A stretch of DNA of 42,674 nucleotides, taken from the IMG/VR virus record IMGVR_UViG_3300027917_000078, positions 1 to 42,674 of that record. The stretch is one strand, 5' to 3'. This DNA comes from a virus. The position numbers were made by a program, and so were the translations under genes. Within the stretch, counting starts at the first letter, position 1. Every line of letters starts with the position of its first letter. This document shows positions 1 through 37,796 of this stretch, one piece after another. The notes under the pieces are model-generated. The model was not told the origin of the DNA, did not search any database, and worked only from the letters and a program-made list of their open reading frames with translations.

Positions 1-633
1 AAGTGCAAGTATTGTGACCAGCCGGCAGCGGTGAGTCTCATCTGGGCTGACGGTCGGGCCTACATCCCGGTCTGCAAGGCCCACGAGCAGAAAGCTCGGA
101 ACCGGGTCAAGTCGCAGAACGACTCCGTGGTGGATGTGAAGAAGGTCGAGCAAGGCCCCATCGCCTACCGAGAGCACACCTTCATGCCACAGGCTCGTAT
201 GGAACAGGCCCTAGAGCCCGCTCTGGCGTTCGTGGAGGACGAGGAGCCAGGAACCTACTTCGGCCTTCAGGCGGACGACACGAGGCTGGAGAGCGCCTTC
301 CTGGAAGCCCCAGCGGACCCCCCTCCCCGGGCGCCAATCGGCCGGAGAGACATCCCGCGCGGTGCTGTCGTCCAGACGCGCACGGGCGGGGACATCATGG
401 GAGTGACGGGCCAGGCGATCAAGCGAGCCACCGGCAAGGGGCTCGGTCGTGGCACCCGTGGCGTCACTCGCCAGATCATGAAGCGGACCCGACGTCGGCA
501 GGAGATTCCCGACTCCCTCATGCAGATGCTCGGGACGGACTGGAAGACCATGCGTGCGACTCGCGTGCACGACAACCGCATGACCGTGACCATTGACGGG
601 GTGAGGTACTCGGTCTACACGAGGAGAGGGTAG
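1..633 (+). CDS. Partial zinc-ribbon-like protein (5' end outside window)
   Basis: The frame is open from base 1, so the gene enters from the left and its start is not visible. The first residues carry CKYC and, 20 residues later, CKAH, a CxxC/CxxH pair that could bind one zinc. The middle is acidic and the C-terminal third (window residues about 130-200) is rich in Arg and Lys. An internal GTG at 31 could be mistaken for the start but would remove the first cysteines. The stop lies 4 bases before the next ATG, which implies co-transcription with the virion polyprotein. I recognise no family; a structural or head-associated role is inferred only from the neighbour. Confidence 0.7.
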   Translation, partial: KCKYCDQPAAVSLIWADGRAYIPVCKAHEQKARNRVKSQNDSVVDVKKVEQGPIAYREHTFMPQARMEQALEPALAFVEDEEPGTYFGLQADDTRLESAFLEAPADPPPRAPIGRRDIPRGAVVQTRTGGDIMGVTGQAIKRATGKGLGRGTRGVTRQIMKRTRRRQEIPDSLMQMLGTDWKTMRATRVHDNRMTVTIDGVRYSVYTRRG

Positions 634-637
634 AACC

Positions 638-3600
638 ATGACAGACCATCACAGCCATCTTCACCGTCTCGTGGAGTCCCGCGCGGACGACATGGGCCGA
701 GACCCTATGACCCGTTTCCAGGCGCTCGCTGGCATCCATCCGACGCTTCCCGGCCTGGCAGAGATGAACCTCGGCGGCTTGGGAGTGCCTCCGAAGATGC
801 TGGCCAAGCTCGGAGACCCGGTGAAGGTCGAGAAGGCGGGCGTGATGAAGATCTACGTCTACCACGCCCCGAAGGCCAAGGTCGGCGGCAAGTACGTGGG
901 CGTCGTGCAGGCACGAGATGGACGGGAGCTTCCAGGGGCGAGCGGCAAGACCGCCGAAGAGGCCCTGGCCAAGACCAAGGCGCTCCTGAAGAAGGCCGGA
1001 GCCAAGGTCGAGTCGTCCGAAGAGGACATGGACGAGGCGAAGCAACAGGGCCTCGACTTCGGCGGCGGCAAGGCGACGAGCACGGAGCCCAAGCCCGGCT
1101 CCCGGATCAAGATCAAGGGGAAGATCTGGACCGTCACCAAGTCCAAGAAAAGCACGGGAGCTTTCGGCGGCAAGGCCATCTACTCCATCGAGTTGGACGG
1201 CCCCGGCGGGAAGAAGTTGAGGGGCACCTACCAGCCGCACTCCGGCGCGCTCCGCCTGGACCCGCCTGGCACCCTCACGAGGCTCGGGGGCCACATCTCC
1301 ACGGTCCACCAGAACGACATGAAATTCATCGAATCGGTCGAGGACGACGGGGAGAGCCTCACCGAAGCGATGAAGCGCATATCCGGGCTCGCGTTCGAGG
1401 TCATCGACATGCGCGGCCAGAGGGGATTCCCCTCGGGTGATGAAGGGCTCGTCTACCACCTGAAGGTGGAGTACAAGCTCAAGGACAAGTACACCGGGGA
1501 AGAGAAGAAGTGGAAGCGACAGTACGTCATCCGCACCGACCACAAGAACAAGGGCTGGCGGATCGATGAGGTGGCGCCTCCCATGCCGGCCGAGGCCGTG
1601 CCGGGCCTGGAGAGCTACTACAAGACCCCGCAGGCTGCCGCGAAGGCGCTGGCAGGGTACCTGAAGGGGATCAAGAGCAAGGGCGTCTATGTCGAGGAGA
1701 GGGAGAGCCTGACAGAGGAGCTACGCCTCTCCAAGGCCGATAAGAAGGTCATCGACGCCTTCATCGACGGCAAGCGGGCCTCATCGAAGAAACTCCACAC
1801 GGACGGCAAGACGCTGGACGGCATGTGGATGGGTGGCAAGAACATCGCCACCTGGGAGGGCGGCAAGATCGCCATGGACGACCCGCCCGGCCGCGCGGTG
1901 CAGACGGTCCAGCGAGCCCTTCGCCGGATGGCTCCCAAGCGCATGCTCGGAGAGGCGGACCTGACCGAGTACCTGAAGCCGGGCCGGTCCGGTGATGTGG
2001 ACATGAAGCTCTATCACATCATCCGCAAAAACCCGGGCATCGTGAACGGCGACCTGATCAAGCGCGCCCTGAAGACGATCAGGGAGCCGGGCCTCGACAA
2101 GGACGACGTGCTCGATTTCGTGCACCGCTACAGCAAGGCCCTTCTCATCCAAGCCAAGGGCCACGGATGGAAGGTGAACCCGGAAGCGGAGAAGCACCGG
2201 AAGGCTGGCACGAACGTCCCAAGCGACTGGTACTCGGAGGACGTGGACGACCTGGACGAGGCTCGGCCCTACGATCCGGAGGAAGACCCGCGCCGGGCGA
2301 CCGATCTCAACCTCTACAAGCTCCTCGCTATGGTGCAGGACGTCGGAGGCGAGAGGAAGCTGGGCAAGGGGGCCTTCAAAAAGGTCGCTGCGGTCAAGCG
2401 CGAGATGACCAAGCGCGGGCTCCCGAAGAAGATGCCGCCGAAGTCGGCGTTCCATCGTGGCTACATTCAGGACAAGCGACTGCTCAACCCGAAGGCCCCG
2501 GGCGGCGGCATCCGGGCCGAGGACGTGGACGCAGAGCAGACCGAAGCCAAGATGACCATGAAGACCGGCGGCCTGACGTTCAAGCGCAGCCTGTCCGGCT
2601 GGGAGACCATGGTGGGAGGCGTCCACTACACCGCGAAGAAGGAAGGCGGCAAGTGGGCGCTCTACAAGTGGCCGAAGGGCTCGAACCGCACCCCGGTCGC
2701 GACGGGCGCCACGCTCGGCAAGGCGATCCAGACGGCGAACCTGTCCGAAGACGCGGACGACCTCACCGAAGCCCCGAGGTACCGCGCCGGTCAGAAGATC
2801 AAGGTTCCGAAGGGGAGCCGGTGGCCGGGCGAGATGGACACCTACAAGATCATCCGCGTCTACCCGACCAAGGATGACGCGGTTGGCCCCTTCCCCTCGA
2901 CGCTCACTCGCCTGATCAAGAAAGGTGAGGGAGCGCTGCTCGGAGAGCTACTTCCCGGCAAGGGCGAGAAGAAGGAGAAGGGCGGAATCTCCGGCCCGAG
3001 CGATACCGGCGGGTACTGGAAGCCGGCGTACTACATCCTGTACGTCGGCAAGGATGGCAAGCAAGAGGGCGGGCCTGTCTCCCTGAAGCCGCATCAGTAC
3101 AAGCGGGCGATGAGCTACCAGTACAGCGAGAGCGTGGAAGACCTCGCTGAGAGCGTGCCCCCGAACGCGAAGAAGATGGTGGACTGGCTCAACAAGGCCC
3201 TGAAGGGCAAGGCCAAGGCCCACTACGACAGCGAATTCGGTGATGGCGGGGTTCGCATCGGGTTCTCCGAGCCGAAGGGCGCGCACCACCTGGAGAAGTG
3301 GGCAGTGCTCCCGAGCGGCTTCATCAACGTCATGCGGAGCGACCCGGGCAACATCGGGCGCGCGGTGGGGGACGTCTCCAAGGCGTTCAAGGCGTGGGTG
3401 AAGAAGGAGTTTGGAGAGGCGGTCGAGCCCCGAGCCGTGGCTGACGGCGCCGTGATCATCACGGAGGATGTGCGCCGGTTCAACGTGCTGGCCGGCGTGG
3501 CTCCGCTCCCTCCCCGCCGCCTGGAGGAGCGGAAGATCGGCCTGAAGCGCTGGATTCGGGACAACCGGGCTGAGATCGATCAGATGATCAAGCAAGCCTA

Positions 3601-3706
3601 CCCGTCCCTGCGGAACCGCAAATTCAGCGACAGCGACCGCGAGGAGTGGGTCATGAACGACGAGGGGCTCTACCGCTGGGCGGAGTCCGAAGGCGTCAAC
3701 GTCTAG
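638..3706 (+). CDS. Giant modular virion polyprotein with repeated prohead-protease-type sites
   Basis: A 1022-residue protein made of roughly 75-130 residue basic modules separated by short acidic linkers. The linkers repeat the pattern (S/D)-V-E-D-D-L-x-E-A: candidate cuts fall after E133 (MDE/A), E243 (LTE/A), E360 (LTE/E), E439 (LGE/A), E541 (LDE/A), E636 (QTE/A), E711 (LTE/A), E838 (LAE/S) and E943 (ITE/D). T4-type prohead proteases (gp21 family) are known to cut after Glu in hydrophobic-x-Glu before a small residue, so I infer maturation into about ten small basic internal head proteins. No module has a fold I can name. The start has a good AGGAGAGGG ribosome site. The internal RFQALAGI (26-33) and RFNVLAGV (947-954) motifs resemble each other, suggesting module duplication. 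Confidence 0.8.
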   Translation: MTDHHSHLHRLVESRADDMGRDPMTRFQALAGIHPTLPGLAEMNLGGLGVPPKMLAKLGDPVKVEKAGVMKIYVYHAPKAKVGGKYVGVVQARDGRELPGASGKTAEEALAKTKALLKKAGAKVESSEEDMDEAKQQGLDFGGGKATSTEPKPGSRIKIKGKIWTVTKSKKSTGAFGGKAIYSIELDGPGGKKLRGTYQPHSGALRLDPPGTLTRLGGHISTVHQNDMKFIESVEDDGESLTEAMKRISGLAFEVIDMRGQRGFPSGDEGLVYHLKVEYKLKDKYTGEEKKWKRQYVIRTDHKNKGWRIDEVAPPMPAEAVPGLESYYKTPQAAAKALAGYLKGIKSKGVYVEERESLTEELRLSKADKKVIDAFIDGKRASSKKLHTDGKTLDGMWMGGKNIATWEGGKIAMDDPPGRAVQTVQRALRRMAPKRMLGEADLTEYLKPGRSGDVDMKLYHIIRKNPGIVNGDLIKRALKTIREPGLDKDDVLDFVHRYSKALLIQAKGHGWKVNPEAEKHRKAGTNVPSDWYSEDVDDLDEARPYDPEEDPRRATDLNLYKLLAMVQDVGGERKLGKGAFKKVAAVKREMTKRGLPKKMPPKSAFHRGYIQDKRLLNPKAPGGGIRAEDVDAEQTEAKMTMKTGGLTFKRSLSGWETMVGGVHYTAKKEGGKWALYKWPKGSNRTPVATGATLGKAIQTANLSEDADDLTEAPRYRAGQKIKVPKGSRWPGEMDTYKIIRVYPTKDDAVGPFPSTLTRLIKKGEGALLGELLPGKGEKKEKGGISGPSDTGGYWKPAYYILYVGKDGKQEGGPVSLKPHQYKRAMSYQYSESVEDLAESVPPNAKKMVDWLNKALKGKAKAHYDSEFGDGGVRIGFSEPKGAHHLEKWAVLPSGFINVMRSDPGNIGRAVGDVSKAFKAWVKKEFGEAVEPRAVADGAVIITEDVRRFNVLAGVAPLPPRRLEERKIGLKRWIRDNRAEIDQMIKQAYPSLRNRKFSDSDREEWVMNDEGLYRWAESEGVNV

Positions 3707-3741: not shown

Positions 3742-4152
3742 ATGGACATCGTGGAGAGGACGTGGAACGAGCTAGGGTACAGCGTGGAGGCTACGGGCTA
3801 TCGGGTGTGGGTTCGTACCCTGCCCCATCCGAGGAAGATCGGGAGCATCTGGCTTCCACCGAAGGCGGCGAGCTTCCATGGCGAGCTACCGCACCTGCGG
3901 ACGATCTTCGCGGTGGTTCTGAGCGCTGGCCCGAGGGGTGTGGCGCAGGAATTGAGGCCAGGGGACATCGTAGCCTTCAAGCGCCTGGAGTTTGCGTGGT
4001 GGGCGAAGCTGGAGCCGACGCAGACCGATGAGTACGGCGGAGACGAGGAGTACGTCGGGTACATCGACGCCAACCACATCGTCTACGTCGTGGAGGAAGC
4101 CGATGGCGTTCGAGTCGCACAGGATCTTGAGCCAGTTGCGGCGGCTGTCTGA
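3742..4152 (+). CDS. GroES-like co-chaperonin fold protein (divergent)
   Basis: 136 residues whose order of elements follows GroES: a segment KIGSIWLPPKAA where GroES has its mobile loop, then FAVVLSAGPRG in place of the VVAVGxG strand, LRPGDIVAFKR in place of the VGDxVLF strand, an insertion rich in Tyr and acidic residues, and a final IDANHIVYVVEE resembling the GroES closing strand. T4 gp31 is a precedent for a divergent phage co-chaperonin used in capsid folding, and the neighbours here are virion genes. A clearer GroES lies at 37796, so the two may be specialised. The last 50 bases overlap the next gene in another frame. Confidence 0.55.
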   Translation: MDIVERTWNELGYSVEATGYRVWVRTLPHPRKIGSIWLPPKAASFHGELPHLRTIFAVVLSAGPRGVAQELRPGDIVAFKRLEFAWWAKLEPTQTDEYGGDEEYVGYIDANHIVYVVEEADGVRVAQDLEPVAAAV

Positions 4153-5008
4153 GGCTGCCCCGAGCACGCCGGTCGGCACCATGGTCGGCTGGAAGGCCGC
4201 CGGCAGCGAGGTCTACGGCGTGGTGATCGGCAGGAGCGGGAAAGACCTTCTGTGCCTGACGACCTACGACAAGACCCTGGAGAAGGACAAGGGCATCCGC
4301 CTCTATCGTGACGAGGCTATGTCAGGCAAGCTCCCGATGGTGACTCCGACCGTCCGGATGAGCCTCCAGCGCGTCCCGGCGGCCAAGGCGTTCACGCGCT
4401 CGCGACTGACGGGCTCGGCCCTGAAGCCCTACGTGCAGGCAGCTTCGGTGCTTCAGATGGAGGAAGCCACGCGGTGGATTCAAGGCGCCGTGAAGAAGCC
4501 CGGCCGGCTGCGGAAGATCCTCGGCGTGTCCAAAGAGGATTGGGAGGCGCTATCGAAGGAGAAGAAGCTGGCCATGATCAACCAAGCGCTGGCCGGCGAC
4601 CCAGATGATTCCGAGCGCGGTGCCCTGCTCCTCGGCAAGCGGTTCATCGGGGGCGAATTCAAGCGCAAGGGAAGGAGCGAGGACATGGACTTCACCACCG
4701 TCAACGCGAAGCTGGAGGGCATCCGGCAATCTCTCACCGAGGGACGGGTGCTGGCCGAGGACGCGGCGGAGAGCGCCTTCAGGCAGGAGCTTCGCACGTG
4801 GGCCGCGAACGAATTCGAGGGCTTTCTCAAAGACCTCGACAAGAAGATGCTGGCGATCAAGAAGGGGAAGTGGCCGACGCACGGCATGGAGTACGCCGTC
4901 ACGCGCTACCGCCCCGGGAGCATGACACACGAGGACTTCATTGACGAGGTGATGGACCACTACCTCGCGTGGCGCAGCAACATGAAGCACGCGGCCAAGA
5001 CGGAGTAG
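4103..5008 (+). CDS. Virion protein with N-terminal propeptide-like site
   Basis: 301 residues; the start at 4103 is chosen for its GGAGGAAG ribosome site and because upstream residues in this frame are antisense-like Ser/Arg repeats. Near the N-terminus the sequence RLSEAAPS offers an LSE/A prohead-protease cut after about 16 residues, and SLTEGRVLAEDA further on offers two more. The central segment after residue 130 (KPGRLRKILGVSKEDW and following) is a Lys-rich helical stretch. It starts inside the preceding GroES-like gene and ends 4 bases before the next start, a tight virion operon. Family not recognised; role as an internal head protein is inferred from the sites. Confidence 0.7.
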   Translation: MAFESHRILSQLRRLSEAAPSTPVGTMVGWKAAGSEVYGVVIGRSGKDLLCLTTYDKTLEKDKGIRLYRDEAMSGKLPMVTPTVRMSLQRVPAAKAFTRSRLTGSALKPYVQAASVLQMEEATRWIQGAVKKPGRLRKILGVSKEDWEALSKEKKLAMINQALAGDPDDSERGALLLGKRFIGGEFKRKGRSEDMDFTTVNAKLEGIRQSLTEGRVLAEDAAESAFRQELRTWAANEFEGFLKDLDKKMLAIKKGKWPTHGMEYAVTRYRPGSMTHEDFIDEVMDHYLAWRSNMKHAAKTE

Positions 5009-5012
5009 TCCT

Positions 5013-6806
5013 GTGTCCCGAGTCACGATCGACCTCTCAGCGCTCAAGAGCGACCTGGCCGGTGAAGCCGAGGACATGGCTCAACGGACGTTCACCGATC
5101 AGAAGAAAGCTCTCAAGAGCGGACTCACCCGAGACCGCATCGCGAATCGCCTCACGCAGGCGTTGGGTGCCCACGTGTCCGAGAAGGGCAAGATCGGAGA
5201 GCACCCGGAGATCGTGGCTTACAGGAATGGGGAGAAGAATCTGGGGAAGATCCTCACCCTGCTCATGGACGTGGACGACTACCGGCTGGCCCACGACCTC
5301 CGAAAGGACATGCTGTCCCTGTCGAAAGCGGAGGCAGGGCACGAGACCTACGACGAGATCCTGAAGGGCTACATGCTCGGCGTAGACGTCGTGATGAAAG
5401 ACACGGAGAAAAACGCCAAGCGGGTTGCCAAGGCGCTCGAACAGGCGGCCCGAAGGGTCCGGGAGTGGGGCAACCACTCGCTGTCCGTCAAGCCGGTCTA
5501 CGACCTCCAGGACATGGACTACGAGCACGGCGTCGGGTCGTTCAACGTGATCATGCAGCCGCACAACCTCAACTTCACGGTCTTCACGGACGCGAAGCTG
5601 GAGATGGGTGACGTGCTGGACGCCGGAGACCCTGAATTCTTCCACGATCCACAGGCCGAGATGAATTATTTCGACCTCGTGAAAGAGATCGAAAAGCCGG
5701 GCTCGTCATCGAAGCCTGGCAAGAACCTGACGCTCTGGACGGCGCGACCCACCAAGGATCGAAAACTCTACCTCCACGCGAAGCACGTGCCGTCCAACAT
5801 CTTCCTCACGACCGACATGCACCGGGCCTCTGGGATCGCGCACGACCTCGGGGCCGGAGAGGTGCGCGATCTGTGGAAGATGGTGATCAACGAGTTGCAT
5901 CTGATGAAGACCCTGGAGGCAGGGCGGATCAAGGACTACCAGACGATCGGGAAGAAGCAGGTTCCCGTGGTCCGCACCATCCTCGTCGCAGAAGGGGAGG
6001 CCGATATGAGCATCTACCAGCGGGCGCTCCCGCTCTTGCAGGAGCTACAGGCGCAGATGGGCGAGCGAAAGCTCCCCCTGGAGGAAGCGGACACCATCGA
6101 GGAGCGCACCCGTGGCGCGCTCCATTGGGTGAAGCAGAAGTACGGCGCCGCCAAGGCGGCAGCACACCGCGCGTTCCTGAAGATGGTCCGCAAAGATCCG
6201 GCCGCGCACCGCCGGAAGATGCGCCAGGACAAGAAATACCACCGGATGCACAAGTGGCACGACGCGCTCATGCGCCGGACCGCCCGGAAGGGGTGGAAGC
6301 GAGAAGCGGTTGCGGCCGGCGGCGACTACCGGCCCTACTGCGACTTCGGCTCGCAGGCGTTCTCCCGGTACCTGGAGGCCAACCCGGACATCGACCCCGA
6401 GGAATTCGGGAGGTTCGTGACGGCCTACAACCGGGCCGACCGTGACTCTGGCGAGTTGGAGGACATCGCCGCCGACGAGATCGCTCGCCTCGGTCAGGAG
6501 TTTGCGGCCAAGATGGGGCTGGAGGAGCGCGACCCGGGCCAGGCGTTCATGGACCTGCCGTTCGAGCTTCGCGTGACCGAGCGCAGTGACCCGTCCTCCA
6601 TGAAGGTGCAGACGCTCATCTTCTCCAAGGACCGATTCACCCGGAAGTCAGCGGTGAAGTGGGCCACGAGCCACGGGTTCACGGCGAGCAAGGTGGACGA
6701 GAAGGAGAACACCTTCCGCATCCGCCAGAAAGACCCCGGCCAATTCGAGACCTTCCGCACGATCACGTTCAAGCCGGGCCTGAAGGCGGTCGTCGCCAAG
6801 GTCTAG
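5013..6806 (+). CDS. Large structural protein with C-terminal phage domain
   Basis: 597 residues starting at a GTG 4 bases after the previous stop; an ATG at 5076 is the alternative start, and no strong ribosome site separates them. Residues up to about 340 form a charged mixed fold; the middle (about 370-430) is strongly basic. The C-terminal 65 residues contain the pattern DRFTRKSAVKWATSHGF then KVDEKENTFRIRQ and FRTITFKPGLKAVV, a module I associate with phage protease/morphogenesis proteins. Operon position suggests a head or portal-region component. No catalytic residues can be named. Confidence 0.65.
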   Translation: MSRVTIDLSALKSDLAGEAEDMAQRTFTDQKKALKSGLTRDRIANRLTQALGAHVSEKGKIGEHPEIVAYRNGEKNLGKILTLLMDVDDYRLAHDLRKDMLSLSKAEAGHETYDEILKGYMLGVDVVMKDTEKNAKRVAKALEQAARRVREWGNHSLSVKPVYDLQDMDYEHGVGSFNVIMQPHNLNFTVFTDAKLEMGDVLDAGDPEFFHDPQAEMNYFDLVKEIEKPGSSSKPGKNLTLWTARPTKDRKLYLHAKHVPSNIFLTTDMHRASGIAHDLGAGEVRDLWKMVINELHLMKTLEAGRIKDYQTIGKKQVPVVRTILVAEGEADMSIYQRALPLLQELQAQMGERKLPLEEADTIEERTRGALHWVKQKYGAAKAAAHRAFLKMVRKDPAAHRRKMRQDKKYHRMHKWHDALMRRTARKGWKREAVAAGGDYRPYCDFGSQAFSRYLEANPDIDPEEFGRFVTAYNRADRDSGELEDIAADEIARLGQEFAAKMGLEERDPGQAFMDLPFELRVTERSDPSSMKVQTLIFSKDRFTRKSAVKWATSHGFTASKVDEKENTFRIRQKDPGQFETFRTITFKPGLKAVVAKV

Positions 6807-10308: not shown

Positions 10309-11967
10309 ATGGGCGTACCGACGATCAACACGAGCACGTGGCGGTTGCCGAAGCGGGGACACTCCTCGCCCGAGAAGACCTTCACGGATGAGATGTACCG
10401 GGCCAAGGGTCTGCCCGTAGCCCCGACGCCGACGACTGGCGGCTCTGGCCTGCCTGTTCTCGACACCTCCGAGTGGAGACTCCCTCCGAAGGGGGCCGCG
10501 CTCACCGAGGGGAAGAAGCGGCAGCCCCACAAGTCGTTCGAGGTGGAGCTTTCCGACGAGGAATTCGATGACCTCGGGGACGACTACGACCCCAGCGACT
10601 TCTCCGACCTGGAGAGCGACTACGATGGGGACATGGACGAGATGTGCGGCGCTTCCCACGGGAAGAAGAAGCGCAAGCGGAAGGGCCAGCCACCCATGGC
10701 CGAGGCCGGCTGCGCTGGCGGGAAGAAGGGGAAGAAGTCCTACCTGGTCAAGCGCAAGGGCGCCGGCATGCCCGAAGAGGACACTCGCTCTGTCCAGCGT
10801 CGGCTCGCTGGCCTAGAGATGGACGAGCACCTGGAGTTTGCGACCGGCGCCCCGCACCGCCGCCTCCCGGAGCAGGCCGAGGCCCCGTTCCGGCCCGAGC
10901 GGCGGGAGCCCCTGTTCGAGGACAACCGGCAGAACGCGCTTCCGTCCGAGCAGGCGGCGCTGGCGGGCCTGACCGAGCGCGCCCCGCTGCCTCACCCGAT
11001 GCACGACACGAGGCCCCTGAGCACTCCGAGAGCCCACGGCGTCCTGGACGACGGCAAGGACTCCGGCGAAGCCTACGTGGAGCAGGTGCTCGCGGAGTCG
11101 CGCTGGTTCTTTCGCGACTTCGGAGACCTCGCCATCGGTGAGCGCCCTTTCGGAGAGGCCCCGGGCGGTAGAGCAGGACCGTGGCGGGGCTCCGAGGATG
11201 AACCGGCCGAGACGCCAGTGGTGCGGCACGGCAAGGTCAAGGGCGCGGTAGGCGACGAGCCGGAGGACGACGACGAGGACGAGAAGAAGCAGCCCCCGCC
11301 GGCCAAGGGCAAGCCGAAAGCTCCCCCAGAGGAAGAGGAGCCGGAAGAGGAGCCCGAGGGCGACGAGGAAGACGAGGACGAGGAAGAGGAGACCTCCGAG
11401 GCCAAGCGGCCGAAGATGCTCAAACCGGCCTACATGGACATGCTCATGACCCTGCCGATCAAGGTAGGGCAGCAGCCGAACCGAGCACGTGGGCAGAAGA
11501 CCAAAGCCCAGATGTTCTCCAAGCTGTTCAAGTCCGGCTACATCGCCTTGAAGAAGGGCGGCGGCACTTACATCCTCACCCCGAAGGGTGAGAAGATGGT
11601 GGCCCTGTGGATGGCTCATCCGCCGATGATCGAGGCCGAGGAGACCCGCGCCGGCCGCGCGGCCCGGGGGTTGGGCGGTCGCCTGAAGGCGGCTGGCGAG
11701 CGGATGCGATCGGGCAGTGCTGCCTCCAGAGCCAAGCACGGGCTCCACGTCCACCTGCGGAAATTCGCCAAGAAGCACGGCATCGACATCGAGAAGCACT
11801 TCCACGGCTCCGACGAGGACGGGAAGACCAAGCCCCACGTCCCGAAAGCTCCCAAGAAGAAGGCCAAGGCGAAGCCGACGCACGCGGCTCCGACCAAGCG
11901 ACATTCCGGCCCGCTCACCAAGCACGCTCCGGTCCTCCACGGACCGCAGATGAAGAAGCACAAGTAG
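10309..11967 (+). CDS. Virion/scaffold-like protein with acidic middle and basic tail
   Basis: About 552 residues. An in-frame ATG at 10303 lies only 2 bases after the TATAGA, so 10309 is preferred as a leaderless start. The N-terminal STWRLP and SEWRLPPKG repeat resembles tail-fibre or capsid tethers. Residues about 300-370 are an extreme acidic Glu/Asp run with Pro/Lys, followed by a compact winged-helix-like segment (GYIALKKGGGTYILTPKG) and a His/Lys-rich C-terminus. PMAEAG is a possible protease site. The charge pattern suits a scaffold or internal head protein; no family was recognised. Confidence 0.65.
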   Translation: MGVPTINTSTWRLPKRGHSSPEKTFTDEMYRAKGLPVAPTPTTGGSGLPVLDTSEWRLPPKGAALTEGKKRQPHKSFEVELSDEEFDDLGDDYDPSDFSDLESDYDGDMDEMCGASHGKKKRKRKGQPPMAEAGCAGGKKGKKSYLVKRKGAGMPEEDTRSVQRRLAGLEMDEHLEFATGAPHRRLPEQAEAPFRPERREPLFEDNRQNALPSEQAALAGLTERAPLPHPMHDTRPLSTPRAHGVLDDGKDSGEAYVEQVLAESRWFFRDFGDLAIGERPFGEAPGGRAGPWRGSEDEPAETPVVRHGKVKGAVGDEPEDDDEDEKKQPPPAKGKPKAPPEEEEPEEEPEGDEEDEDEEEETSEAKRPKMLKPAYMDMLMTLPIKVGQQPNRARGQKTKAQMFSKLFKSGYIALKKGGGTYILTPKGEKMVALWMAHPPMIEAEETRAGRAARGLGGRLKAAGERMRSGSAASRAKHGLHVHLRKFAKKHGIDIEKHFHGSDEDGKTKPHVPKAPKKKAKAKPTHAAPTKRHSGPLTKHAPVLHGPQMKKHK

Positions 11968-13311: not shown

Positions 13312-13998
13312 ATGGGTTTCGAGAGCGATGCTTCAGTCGTGCGCGAGTTGGAGCTATTCATCGACAACGACGCGCAGTTGCATCGGCAACAGTACGTGCC
13401 GATCCTCAAGAACCTCATGACCAAGCACGGCCAAGGCCGCTACAACCGCGCGCTGGCCGTGAAGCTGTTCATGTACCTCGTGGACAACGGCGCGAAGAAG
13501 TACGCCAAGGAGCACGGCGGCCCCGGCGGCTCCCCCTGGCACCAGATGTTCCCCAAGCCGATCCGCGTGAAGGTCGCGGAGTCCCTGCGCGACTCGTTCG
13601 AGGACGAGGCCGAGTTGGGCAACTACGACGAGTACATCCCGAAGAAGTACCAGGGCAAGGTCTCCGGCAAGACGATCAAGGAAGGCCAGGAGCCCGAGGG
13701 TGAGCCCGTGGACGAGGACGGACCGCTGTTCTCCGGCGGGACGCGGCAAGCTCTCTCCGAGGCTGCGGGGTCCAAGCGTGGGTACGCAGCGCTCCCGGGG
13801 CTCCAACGGACGGCGCAGTACGTCCAGGACACCGTGTATCTCAGCAAGAAGATGCACGAGGCGTTCAAGGCCAACGACGAATCCAAGGCCAAGTCCCACA
13901 TGCGCGGCATGCTCGCCGCCCTCGAATTGGGCCTGAAGGGCATGGGCATCGAAGAAGCCTCTCGCCTCGTCTCCCAGGCTCAGAAGCTCGTCAAGTAG
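13312..13998 (+). CDS. Virion-type protein with internal protease site
   Basis: 228 residues. The N-terminal 70 residues form an alpha-helical domain (DNDAQLHRQQYVPILKNL and on), followed by a flexible acidic linker and RQALSEAAGSKRG, an LSE/A prohead-protease-type site near residue 150. The piece after the site (about 78 residues) is a helical bundle. The arrangement suggests a protein matured during head assembly. Start supported by GGGAGG. Family not recognised. Confidence 0.65.
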   Translation: MGFESDASVVRELELFIDNDAQLHRQQYVPILKNLMTKHGQGRYNRALAVKLFMYLVDNGAKKYAKEHGGPGGSPWHQMFPKPIRVKVAESLRDSFEDEAELGNYDEYIPKKYQGKVSGKTIKEGQEPEGEPVDEDGPLFSGGTRQALSEAAGSKRGYAALPGLQRTAQYVQDTVYLSKKMHEAFKANDESKAKSHMRGMLAALELGLKGMGIEEASRLVSQAQKLVK

Positions 13999-14357: not shown

Positions 14358-15383
14358 ATGGACTGGAGACGTTCCGATCCTCTCAAGCAAGGAAAACTCA
14401 GGTACGCCAAGGAATTGGGGTACCGCATGCAGCAGTGGCACTCCAGCGCGGGAGACCCGATCTACGCGGTGGGCTCCTTCATCTCCGGCGGGCACATGGA
14501 GACGCCCGAGCGTGTCCAGGCCGCGATCGATGAATTCGAGAAGATCCTCCATTGGGCCAAGGGCGGCGACCGCCAGGACGTGGAGAAGATCATCCGCGAC
14601 CTGAAGAAGGGCCTGAAGGAGAGCGCCGACGAACCCGAGGGCGAGGAGCTTTCCGAGAAGGTCCGCCGCCGGCAGCGCCGAGGCGAGCCCAAGCGCATCC
14701 TCCGGCGCATCATGGGTCAGGTCGCGCAGAAGCGACTTCGGGAGAAGGCATGCGCCATGGAGGGCAACTCGCTCGGCGCCTGCTCCCGGTTCGAGACCTT
14801 CCTCCGGGCGCAGTTGGCCACGGGGAAGAAGGTCGGCCGCAACGCGATGGTGAAAGAGCTATCGTCGCACTGGTACACGTCGCTGCCGAAAGAGACGATG
14901 GACGCCGTGCACGACTACGCCATCGCGCTCGCCAAGGCCGGGAACAAGGAAATCGAGCAGGGCTCCATGGATTGGGGCGAGAGCGTCTCCCACCTGCGGC
15001 GCACGATCGTCACGGAGGCGGGGATGCGGAGGACCGTGACCGAGGCCAGGCGCCCGCTCTCCTACTACCCGGGGATCAAGCCCCGGAAGCCGCAACCCGC
15101 TGTCGGAAAGCTCGCCACCTACGCGATCAAGGGGAAGGCCGGCATCGAGGTCAGCCAGCGCGGCTACATCGTCACTGTCAAGACGGACAAGGGTGTGAAG
15201 GATATCGTCTACATCCACACCCGAGATTTCGACAACGAGGACGCCGCCTACGCCGAGGCCAAGCGGATCGCGCTGTCGATCGACAAGGGCCACTGGTCCG
15301 GCGGCCGAGATGACCACCCGAGCAGGCGCATCCGGGAGATCCGGGTGAAGGGCAAGGTCATGACGGTCGAGCACGACAAGTAG
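14358..15383 (+). CDS. Virion-type protein with two tandem VTE/A sites
   Basis: 341 residues: an N-terminal helical domain, a central basic helical domain and a C-terminal beta-rich domain (KGKAGIEVSQRGYIVTVKTD). Between the last two domains, TIVTEAGMRRTVTEARRP provides two closely spaced VTE/A sites, and EELSEKVRRR provides another near residue 100. Cleavage would release three pieces. It continues the head-protein cluster begun at 13312. Family not recognised. Confidence 0.65.
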   Translation: MDWRRSDPLKQGKLRYAKELGYRMQQWHSSAGDPIYAVGSFISGGHMETPERVQAAIDEFEKILHWAKGGDRQDVEKIIRDLKKGLKESADEPEGEELSEKVRRRQRRGEPKRILRRIMGQVAQKRLREKACAMEGNSLGACSRFETFLRAQLATGKKVGRNAMVKELSSHWYTSLPKETMDAVHDYAIALAKAGNKEIEQGSMDWGESVSHLRRTIVTEAGMRRTVTEARRPLSYYPGIKPRKPQPAVGKLATYAIKGKAGIEVSQRGYIVTVKTDKGVKDIVYIHTRDFDNEDAAYAEAKRIALSIDKGHWSGGRDDHPSRRIREIRVKGKVMTVEHDK

Positions 15384-23483: not shown

Positions 23484-23809
23484 CCGAGCATGCCCCCACC
23501 ATGAGCCATCGGGGGCCGCATGCCGATGACGCTCTCGATTGGGATGAGGCCCGCGACCCCATGCGAGCGCCTGACAGGCCCGTCAAGGCCCCGTGGCGCC
23601 TGCTAGGGCTCAGAGACCGTCAGCTACTCGACGCGCTCTCAGACGGCACCTGGACGCCGGAGGACGCCCTTCGCGGGCTGCTCCGCTGGGGACGTCTGCG
23701 CTTCTTCCTGACGACGACGCGGATGGTCATCGCGGGATGGATCGAGGCGCGGCCGGCAAACTCCTTCCTCACGAGCGAGTACCGGCTGAGTCCGCAGGTG
23801 TGGCAATGA
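23480..23809 (+). CDS. Small winged-helix-like protein
   Basis: 109 residues starting at the GTG of a GTGA overlap. LRDRQLLDALSDGTWTPEDALRGLLRW, a strand FFLTTTRMVIAGW and the rest resemble a winged helix that reads DNA ends or ssDNA. Ends by ATGA overlap with the GGQ gene. Confidence 0.5.
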   Translation: MTEHAPTMSHRGPHADDALDWDEARDPMRAPDRPVKAPWRLLGLRDRQLLDALSDGTWTPEDALRGLLRWGRLRFFLTTTRMVIAGWIEARPANSFLTSEYRLSPQVWQ

Positions 23810-24297
23810 GCCGCGAGGTCATCTTCACGCTGTCCAAGGCGAACGGCGACTTCATCGTCAAGACGGCCCGGAGCAGCGGCCCCGGTGGGCAGAACGTGAA
23901 CAAGCGGGACACCAAGGTCCACATCACGCACCCCGCGTCGGGCGCGAAGGCCGAGTGCCAGACGCACCGGACGCAGGAGCGCAACCGGGCCGAGGCGTTC
24001 CGCCGGCTGGTCAACGGCGAGACCTTCCAGACGTGGCTGCGTCTGGAATTAGCGAGACGGGGCGTAGAGAGTGCGCCCCAACACGGGGGCACCGGACCGA
24101 CAGGCTCCCGTGGTGAGAAGGTGCGGACCTACCACTTCCCCCGCGACGAGGTGACGGATCACCGCGTCGGTTTGTCGGTCAAAGGGGTGAAGCGGGTCTT
24201 GGACGGAGACCTCGACGTCTTCATCGAAGCGTTGACTCTCCAAAGGTGCGAAGATGGCACAACCGAAAGCTCCCTACGTAAAGGGGTCATCGACTAG
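23806..24297 (+). CDS. Minimal class-I release-factor-like GGQ protein
   Basis: 163 residues. SSGPGGQNVNK (23-33) is the GGQ motif that triggers peptidyl-tRNA hydrolysis in the ribosome, followed by THPASGAKAECQTHRTQERNR, the RF domain-3 continuation. VRTYHFPRDEVTDHR (106-120) is the RF1/RF2 element R-x-Y-x-F-P-x-x-x-x-T-D-H-R, and DGDLDVFIEAL its usual ending. The codon-reading PxT/SPF domain and domain 1 are absent. Candidate relatives are PrfH and ArfB, which act on damaged or stalled ribosomes; the length is nearer ArfB, but the TDHR element is RF/PrfH-like. It overlaps both neighbours. Confidence 0.85.
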   Translation: MSREVIFTLSKANGDFIVKTARSSGPGGQNVNKRDTKVHITHPASGAKAECQTHRTQERNRAEAFRRLVNGETFQTWLRLELARRGVESAPQHGGTGPTGSRGEKVRTYHFPRDEVTDHRVGLSVKGVKRVLDGDLDVFIEALTLQRCEDGTTESSLRKGVID

Positions 24298-29626: not shown

Positions 29627-29975
29627 GGGGCCGACTTGGATTCGACGGGTATTGAGAAGGTAGCAGGAGCGTGCCGGGCATGATCGTCGCCCGTAAAAAC
29701 GCGGTCAAAACACAGTTGCCAACCGTGACAACTACCCGGAGGCCCGCCTGGCGGCGTGACCTCCCGTTCCACCCCGGAGTGCCCACGGCTGGGGATGGGG
29801 CGCCATGCAGTGGGCTGGTCACAGCGCGGCTGCGTCCGAGCGCGTGACGAGACATAGGGCGCACCCTCGCGGCGCGCGGTCGCCGGTCCGAACGTCGCGA
29901 GTATCAAACCGGCTACGCACGTAGAGCCTACGACTGGACAGTGCGCGGACGCGGGTTCGACTCCCGCCGGCTCCA
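29627..29975 (+). ncRNA. ssrA: Transfer-messenger RNA (tmRNA)
   Basis: Both tRNA-like ends are present: GGGGCCG pairs with CGGCTCC, and the T arm reads GCGGG-TTCGACT-CCCGC. The mRNA part begins after CCCGTAAAAACGCG, and the tag frame (resume codon GCC) encodes ANRDNYPEARLAA then TGA, ending in the LAA that ClpXP recognises. The 3' CCA is not encoded (ACTA). It rescues stalled ribosomes and marks the product for degradation. Lying between holin and amidase, it probably supplies rescue during late infection or replaces host tmRNA. Confidence 0.95.
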
Positions 29976-29998
29976 CTAGGTGTTGGCAGCACCGTTAT

Positions 29999-37356: not shown

Positions 37357-37796
37357 CGGACAGACGGGCCAAGGTCACACGACTGCCGGATGGAACCTAC
37401 GAGGTCGAGGGCGTGGCCTACGTCGCGGGCCAGCCCAACGTCAACGGCATGATCTACCCGAAGGGGGTTCTGGAGAAGGCGCTGGCCGAATTCATGGCCA
37501 AGGACTTCCGCCCTGTGACGTTCGGGTGCAAGGCGCAGCCGAAGCTCGGAGACATGATCGGGGAGGTGACGGACGGCGAGATGGTAGGGAACGAGGTTCG
37601 CATGAGGATCAAGACCCTGCCATCGCATTGGGCCGCTCACGGCATGGCGGCTCGGAAGCTGGACGCCGCGCTCGCCGGCTCGGGCATCGGAGACCTGGAC
37701 GAGAAGACCAACCACATCCGCGACTTTCACATCACGTCGATCGGAATCGTCGGCGTGGGCGACGTGGAGCCTGGGAAAGCTCCCGAGGAGGACTGA
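37353..37796 (+). CDS. Prohead-protease-like N-terminal domain protein
   Basis: 147 residues. VAYVAGQPNVNGMIYPKGVLEKAL matches the N-x-NG-x-x-YP-x-x-VL opening of T4/HK97-type prohead proteases, but the GEL-x-HP catalytic His region is replaced by FGCKAQPKLGDM, so activity is doubtful. If active it would explain the L-x-E/A sites in virion proteins; if not, the real protease lies outside the window. Starts after GGAAAGCTCC. Confidence 0.5.
   Translation: MTDRRAKVTRLPDGTYEVEGVAYVAGQPNVNGMIYPKGVLEKALAEFMAKDFRPVTFGCKAQPKLGDMIGEVTDGEMVGNEVRMRIKTLPSHWAAHGMAARKLDAALAGSGIGDLDEKTNHIRDFHITSIGIVGVGDVEPGKAPEED

Follow-up and report, generated by a model that had tools for sequence, protein, structure and literature searches.

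A modular phage protein with acidic L-x-E linkers, probably a polyprotein cut inside the virus head

The stretch of DNA analyzed here, called the window, is a linear virus record of 42,674 bases (GC 65%) from a large phage, with genes for a TubZ/FtsZ homologue, ParB, GroES, and a phage tmRNA. Near its start, an open frame on the plus strand (638..3706) encodes a 1,022-aa chain of basic modules separated by acidic linkers, which raises the question of whether this product acts whole or is cut into many small proteins. The frame lies directly behind an upstream gene (1..633) and has a strong SD ribosome-binding site (GAGGAGAGG) ahead of ATG 638, and the homology of relatives to it begins at the first residues. 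Searches with the whole 1,022-aa protein gave no match, either by tblastn against 50,697 phage records or in a direct scan of viral contigs, and Pfam and PHROG searches with the whole protein and with single modules returned no significant family. Likewise, no function could be assigned to the modules from Pfam, PHROG, or module-level families. Relatives were found instead through the neighboring tubZ and 5013 genes. Judging from sequence comparisons, the best reading is that the chain is probably a head-internal polyprotein, targeted to the prohead and cut there, while the virus head forms, to yield about ten small proteins.

The chain starts with an N-terminal leader (residues 1-42, 638..763; RFQALAGIHPTLPGLAE), a candidate head-targeting sequence with L-x-E at positions 13 and 42 that is conserved in the related contigs L002 and L008. 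Nine long modules follow on the same strand. Module 1 (43-133, 764..1036) ends in SSEEDMDE|A and is 62% identical to a module of the related genome G001, module 2 (134-243, 1037..1366) ends in VEDDGESLTE|A, module 3 (244-360, 1367..1717) in VEERESLTE|E, and module 4 (361-444, 1718..1969) in RMLGE|ADLTE|Y. Module 5 (445-541, 1970..2260) ends in SEDVDDLDE|A, a linker identical to G001 linkers, module 6 (542-636, 2261..2545) in AEDVDAEQTE|A, which is not L-x-E, module 7 (637-711, 2546..2770) in SEDADDLTE|A, and module 8 (712-838, 2771..3151) in SESVEDLAE|S. Module 9 (839-927, 3152..3418), which ends in KKEFGE|A, is weakly homologous to a module from another G001 polyprotein gene. The chain closes with a second leader-like segment (928-964, 3419..3529; DVRRFNVLAGVAPLPPRRLEE), which G001 and a second related genome, G002, also keep at this position, and with a C-terminal helical module (965-1022, 3530..3703). 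Each of the nine long modules has a basic core, with a net charge of +4 to +11 and a pI of 9.6-10.3.

Strict L-x-E|A/S sites number five in this frame (E243, E439, E541, E711, and E838), and together with relaxed ones (M-D-E133|A, L-T-E360|E, L-T-E444|Y, F-G-E927|A, and L-E-E964|R) they represent the substrate motif of gp21, the S77 protease of T4. The original prediction of about nine L-x-E/A sites thus holds with the relaxed consensus only. Its proposal that E-D-L-x-E-A linkers fit the gp21 motif (L/I-x-E) is well supported by the comparison with relatives, with the exception of Q-T-E636|A. Motif count alone is weak evidence and was dropped, because the generic pattern [LIVMF]xE[AGS] occurs 8 times against 3.9 in shuffles (p ~0.05). 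This twofold excess would suit L-x-E matches that arose by chance in an ordinary multidomain phage protein, with no processing and no special role for the linkers. The linkers themselves argue against such a coincidence: the acidic pattern [DE]x?[DES][LMF]xE[AGS] is found 6 times in the chain against 0.107 expected (0 of 20,000 shuffles), and in none of the other called genes of the window. As this regular expression was picked after viewing the window protein, a fair check comes from the syntenic gene of G001, which had no part in defining it and gave 6 occurrences against 0.097 expected, again with 0 of 20,000 shuffles. Given also that homology breakpoints coincide with L-x-E sites and that the linkers recur in distant phages, both described below, we regard a chance origin as highly improbable. 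The pattern of the original prediction is thus confirmed, with nine basic modules of 75-127 aa and acidic linkers between them, mostly ending in L-x-E. A test of module-length regularity was post hoc and placed a boundary at 633 in place of 636, and it was not used as evidence.

The G001 linkers include EDVDDLDE|A, EDVDDLGE|A, and EDEDDLDE|A, and the linker copies differ by synonymous codons, which suggests that selection acts at the peptide level. Two linker types, EDVDDLDE|A and ESVELDE|A, are strongly conserved up to P1 and less so beyond it, with Ala as the commonest P1' residue, the P3 Leu and P1 Glu having been picked in part by the search pattern.

Comparison with the relatives revealed which parts of the chain stay and which are exchanged. 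The syntenic counterpart in G001 (L002:2783-5785) has 1,000 aa. What it has in common with the window protein is the leader (1-42), a single module at 51-133 that is 62% identical and in G001 sits behind an extra module, and a tail segment around 918-964. The counterpart at the same place in G002 (L008:6874-8943) has 689 aa and shares only the leader and the tail. Nearly all modules between leader and tail are thus replaced in these two genomes, with at most one kept. The window, G001, and G002 together have 37 internal homology breakpoints in their L-x-E-rich genes, and 23 of these fall no more than 5 aa from an L-x-E, where 10 would be expected (0 of 1,000). The control motifs L-x-D (6 versus 5.7) and L-x-K (5 versus 9.2) had no effect, and LE and LxxE were enriched too, but more weakly than L-x-E, as would be expected if the joints are acidic.

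The modules are also found in other genes, as free-standing families, and in fused or split genes. The G002 polyprotein has at its end the module that is also C-terminal in window gene 14427..15383 (plus strand; E 3e-17). The C-terminal module of a gene like window gene 13312..13998 (plus strand; two modules with L-x-E) resembles a module within the G001 polyprotein (E 5e-4). The G002 homology of this two-module gene stops at TRxxLxE|, and the sequences are unrelated afterwards. Among known families, phrog_9437 (98 aa) matches directly after SLDE612|G in a second G001 chain, phrog_3308 (88 aa) and DUF3008 (57 aa) match modules of related chains on contigs L128 and L098, adjoining sites, and a weak KOW match lies between E812 and E880 of G001.

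Several neighboring genes of the window, all on the plus strand, share these features. The upstream gene (1..633) is represented by its C-terminal part, and its intact relatives contain L-x-E sites and a HEIGH metallopeptidase-like motif. In the two relatives of 657-671 aa with HEIGH (L002:694-2709 and L008:4901-6874), zinc metallopeptidase matches are weak and below Pfam cut-offs. A second modular chain of 552 aa (10309..11967) has segments replaced in G001 and G002. An L-x-E-rich gene (4103..5008) and the L-x-E-containing gene behind it (5013..6806) are separate in the window, while in G002 the 4103-like protein and the C-terminal part of the 5013 product belong to one frame (L035:17905-19443), and covalent linkage is therefore dispensable. 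Positions 3742-4152 were considered as a GroES/gp31-like protein, a candidate that Pfam did not confirm.

Exchange at the linkers could also be explained without cleavage. The chain might be an uncleaved multidomain internal protein of the polyvalent type, packaged and injected whole, in which the linkers are flexible spacers and recombination joints. Phage proteins of 2-15 domains injected with DNA are known (PMC5512222), acidic flexible linkers fit plain spacers, and recombination within linkers could produce the breakpoint enrichment by itself. We nevertheless consider this explanation unlikely: linkers of differing types all carry exactly L-x-E|A, the specificity of S77 proteases, homologous modules occur both fused and as separate genes, and Pfam, PHROG, and module-level searches detected no enzymatic domains in the window protein. 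Like the polyvalent proteins described by Iyer et al. in 2017 (PMC5512222), the chain has many domains in one polypeptide, shows module shuffling, and has a proposed delivery with DNA. Polyvalent proteins, in contrast, combine disparate, often enzymatic domains with autopeptidases. None of these was detected in the window chain, whose linkers instead match a prohead protease.

Leader and tail share the motif [FR]xx[LM][ASV]G[ILVM]xP, with an L-x-E behind it (examples are RFQALAGIHPTLPGLAE and RFNVLAGVAPLPPRRLEE). A count over the called genes of three genomes gave 8 copies, where 0.12 would be expected, and seven of the eight lie in these polyproteins. We propose that it may be the targeting sequence. 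A scan with the C-terminal module gave no match. In structure prediction, the full-length AlphaFold model was unusable (mean pLDDT 34.9), and only the C-terminal helical module reached a pLDDT of ~80 in it. A two-sequence model of module 1 yielded a beta4-alpha domain (pLDDT 74, core >80) with a linker of low confidence, so that module 1 is predicted to fold independently and its linker is consistent with disorder. Fold searches with module 1 found nothing below E 0.001, the best viral matches being mostly small phage proteins at E 0.01-0.1 and thus short of significance, and its PDB sequence matches were designed helical repeats and were discarded.

The protease and capsid required by the polyprotein reading are present in the relatives. 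Gp23 capsid and head maturation protease are encoded in G001, G002, G004, G005, and G006, phrog_207 is found in five relatives, and the two proteases tested with Pfam (L012 and L014) belong to Peptidase_S77, the T4 gp21 family (67 and 62 bits, cut-off 27). Four relatives have an L-x-E|G near the N-terminus of the capsid. Within the window, a 42.7-kb fragment, no clear S77 protease was found. A weak, diverged head-protease-like frame of 147 aa (37353-37796, E 0.0023) adjoins GroES and lacks the ELDHP and GISSRG motifs of full proteases. A short diverged protease-like frame is also present in L016, and a diverged protease paralog has been reported in phage SPN3US. On a separate 204-kb contig with a Gp23 match (L068, genome G010), the head-protease match is broken by one TAG and three TAA codons, possibly reflecting stop-codon reassignment or introns.

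Alternatively, the chain could be a scaffold-like prohead core protein comparable to T4 gp22, gp67, and gp68, the cut pieces of which exit the head. The resemblance lies in the several L/I-x-E sites within one chain, at which T4 core proteins are cut before most of the pieces leave. The T4 proteins guide the assembly of the shell and for the most part are cleared away as peptides, whereas the window modules are basic, diverse, and exchanged, one of them is predicted to be folded, and some are related to free-standing families. Moreover, the relatives have core-like components elsewhere: their protease is fused to a scaffold-like coiled-coil region, and a separate acidic core-like protein contains L-x-E sites. 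We therefore find a role as core protein very unlikely.

Chains of this kind extend beyond the immediate relatives. Contig L061 (GC 38%), reached through a gene like 13312..13998, encodes a 642-aa chain repeating ESVELDE|A, with linker DNA almost identical between copies, which would favor recombination and in that respect suits an uncleaved chain as well. A scan with ESVELDEA matched at least 120 viral contigs, and among the matches listed, 21 of the 81 frames examined had two or more copies, with up to five in an 815-aa chain. Module families recur in varying order among the listed chains, as judged from approximate, single-linkage clusters, and S77 together with Gp23 was found in seven of nine ESVELDEA contigs tested. 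The original description of an unusually large cassette is accordingly valid in relative terms only, since the relatives, like many other phage contigs, have comparable chains. Frames of 859-1,376 codons from stop to stop on high-GC contigs (L057:8219-12346, L058:9137-12169, L059:8330-12391, and L063:9395-11971) contain a 13312-like domain amid modules that are separated by N-P rich linkers and repeats of R(K/R)NIFTFNNP, which may represent a second type of linker served by a different protease.

These observations can be set against known head-protein systems. T4 gp21 cuts after L/I-x-E (PMC9026906), and a 10-residue propeptide targets the basic T4 internal proteins, which are ejected (PMC9026906, PMC3012670). 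As for T4 IPI, IPII, IPIII, and Alt (PMC9026906, PMC3012670), small basic proteins are predicted here. Their mature parts would vary behind a conserved candidate leader, which is short, N-terminal, and ends in L/I-x-E, and the phage group has a gp21-family protease and Gp23 capsid. The T4-type leader spans ~10-20 aa and ends in L/I-x-E, and the candidate leader of the window chain spans 42 aa with L-x-E at 13 and 42. Each T4 internal protein has its own gene and one leader, whereas the window chain joins about ten modules, with sites recurring inside it and a leader motif toward either end. It is therefore not a plain member of this class, as one gene is predicted to yield many products. In the large phages SPN3US and phiKZ, gp245 and gp175, respectively, process ejected head proteins by cutting behind a short x-x-E motif, in some cases more than once (PMC10052503, PMC5694885), but there the multiple cuts trim N-terminal propeptides (A-x-E in SPN3US) and do not release many products from one chain.

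For the polyprotein, we infer the following course from these sequence features. The N-terminal leader and its second copy near the C-terminus would bring the chain into the prohead core, and after closure of the shell a gp21-family protease would cut the acidic L-x-E linkers behind their Glu. This would release about ten small and mainly basic proteins, which would stay in the head with the packaged DNA. They would probably enter the host with it, like T4 IPI-III, although injection and action against the host are the most speculative part of the proposal. The linkers would double as neutral joints at which strains, and also genes, could acquire, drop, or swap modules, which would explain rapid change of cargo without loss of head targeting. 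T4 IPI blocks a restriction enzyme and IPIII is needed for infecting one E. coli strain, which makes the cargo of such cassettes, if they are real, a plausible pool of anti-defense proteins.

Polyproteins are well known from RNA viruses and retroviruses. None of this kind was described for tailed DNA phages in the open-access papers searched, which is not proof of absence. More tentatively, and with somewhat less than even confidence, phages of the Gp23/S77 type might widely use protease-cut polyproteins in which one leader loads a swappable string of cargo, possibly anti-defense proteins, into the head, with the linker as recombination joint. Such use would represent a genuine viral polyprotein strategy in tailed phages. 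If cutting were confirmed, the linkers would reveal hundreds of small head-cargo proteins in metagenomic phages.

Other features were observed in the window and its relatives. Positions 34499-35266 of the window match Tad6, a type I Thoeris inhibitor (PF25188, E 3e-27). The phage-encoded tmRNA (29627-29976) specifies the tag ANRDNYPEARLAA and, together with an RF-1-domain protein (23806-24297), could form a ribosome-rescue set. Finally, TubZ/FtsZ homologues of three contigs (L004:9512-12067, L005:9446-12064, and L007:9824-12022) carry an apparent intein-like insert after the Cys of YNC.
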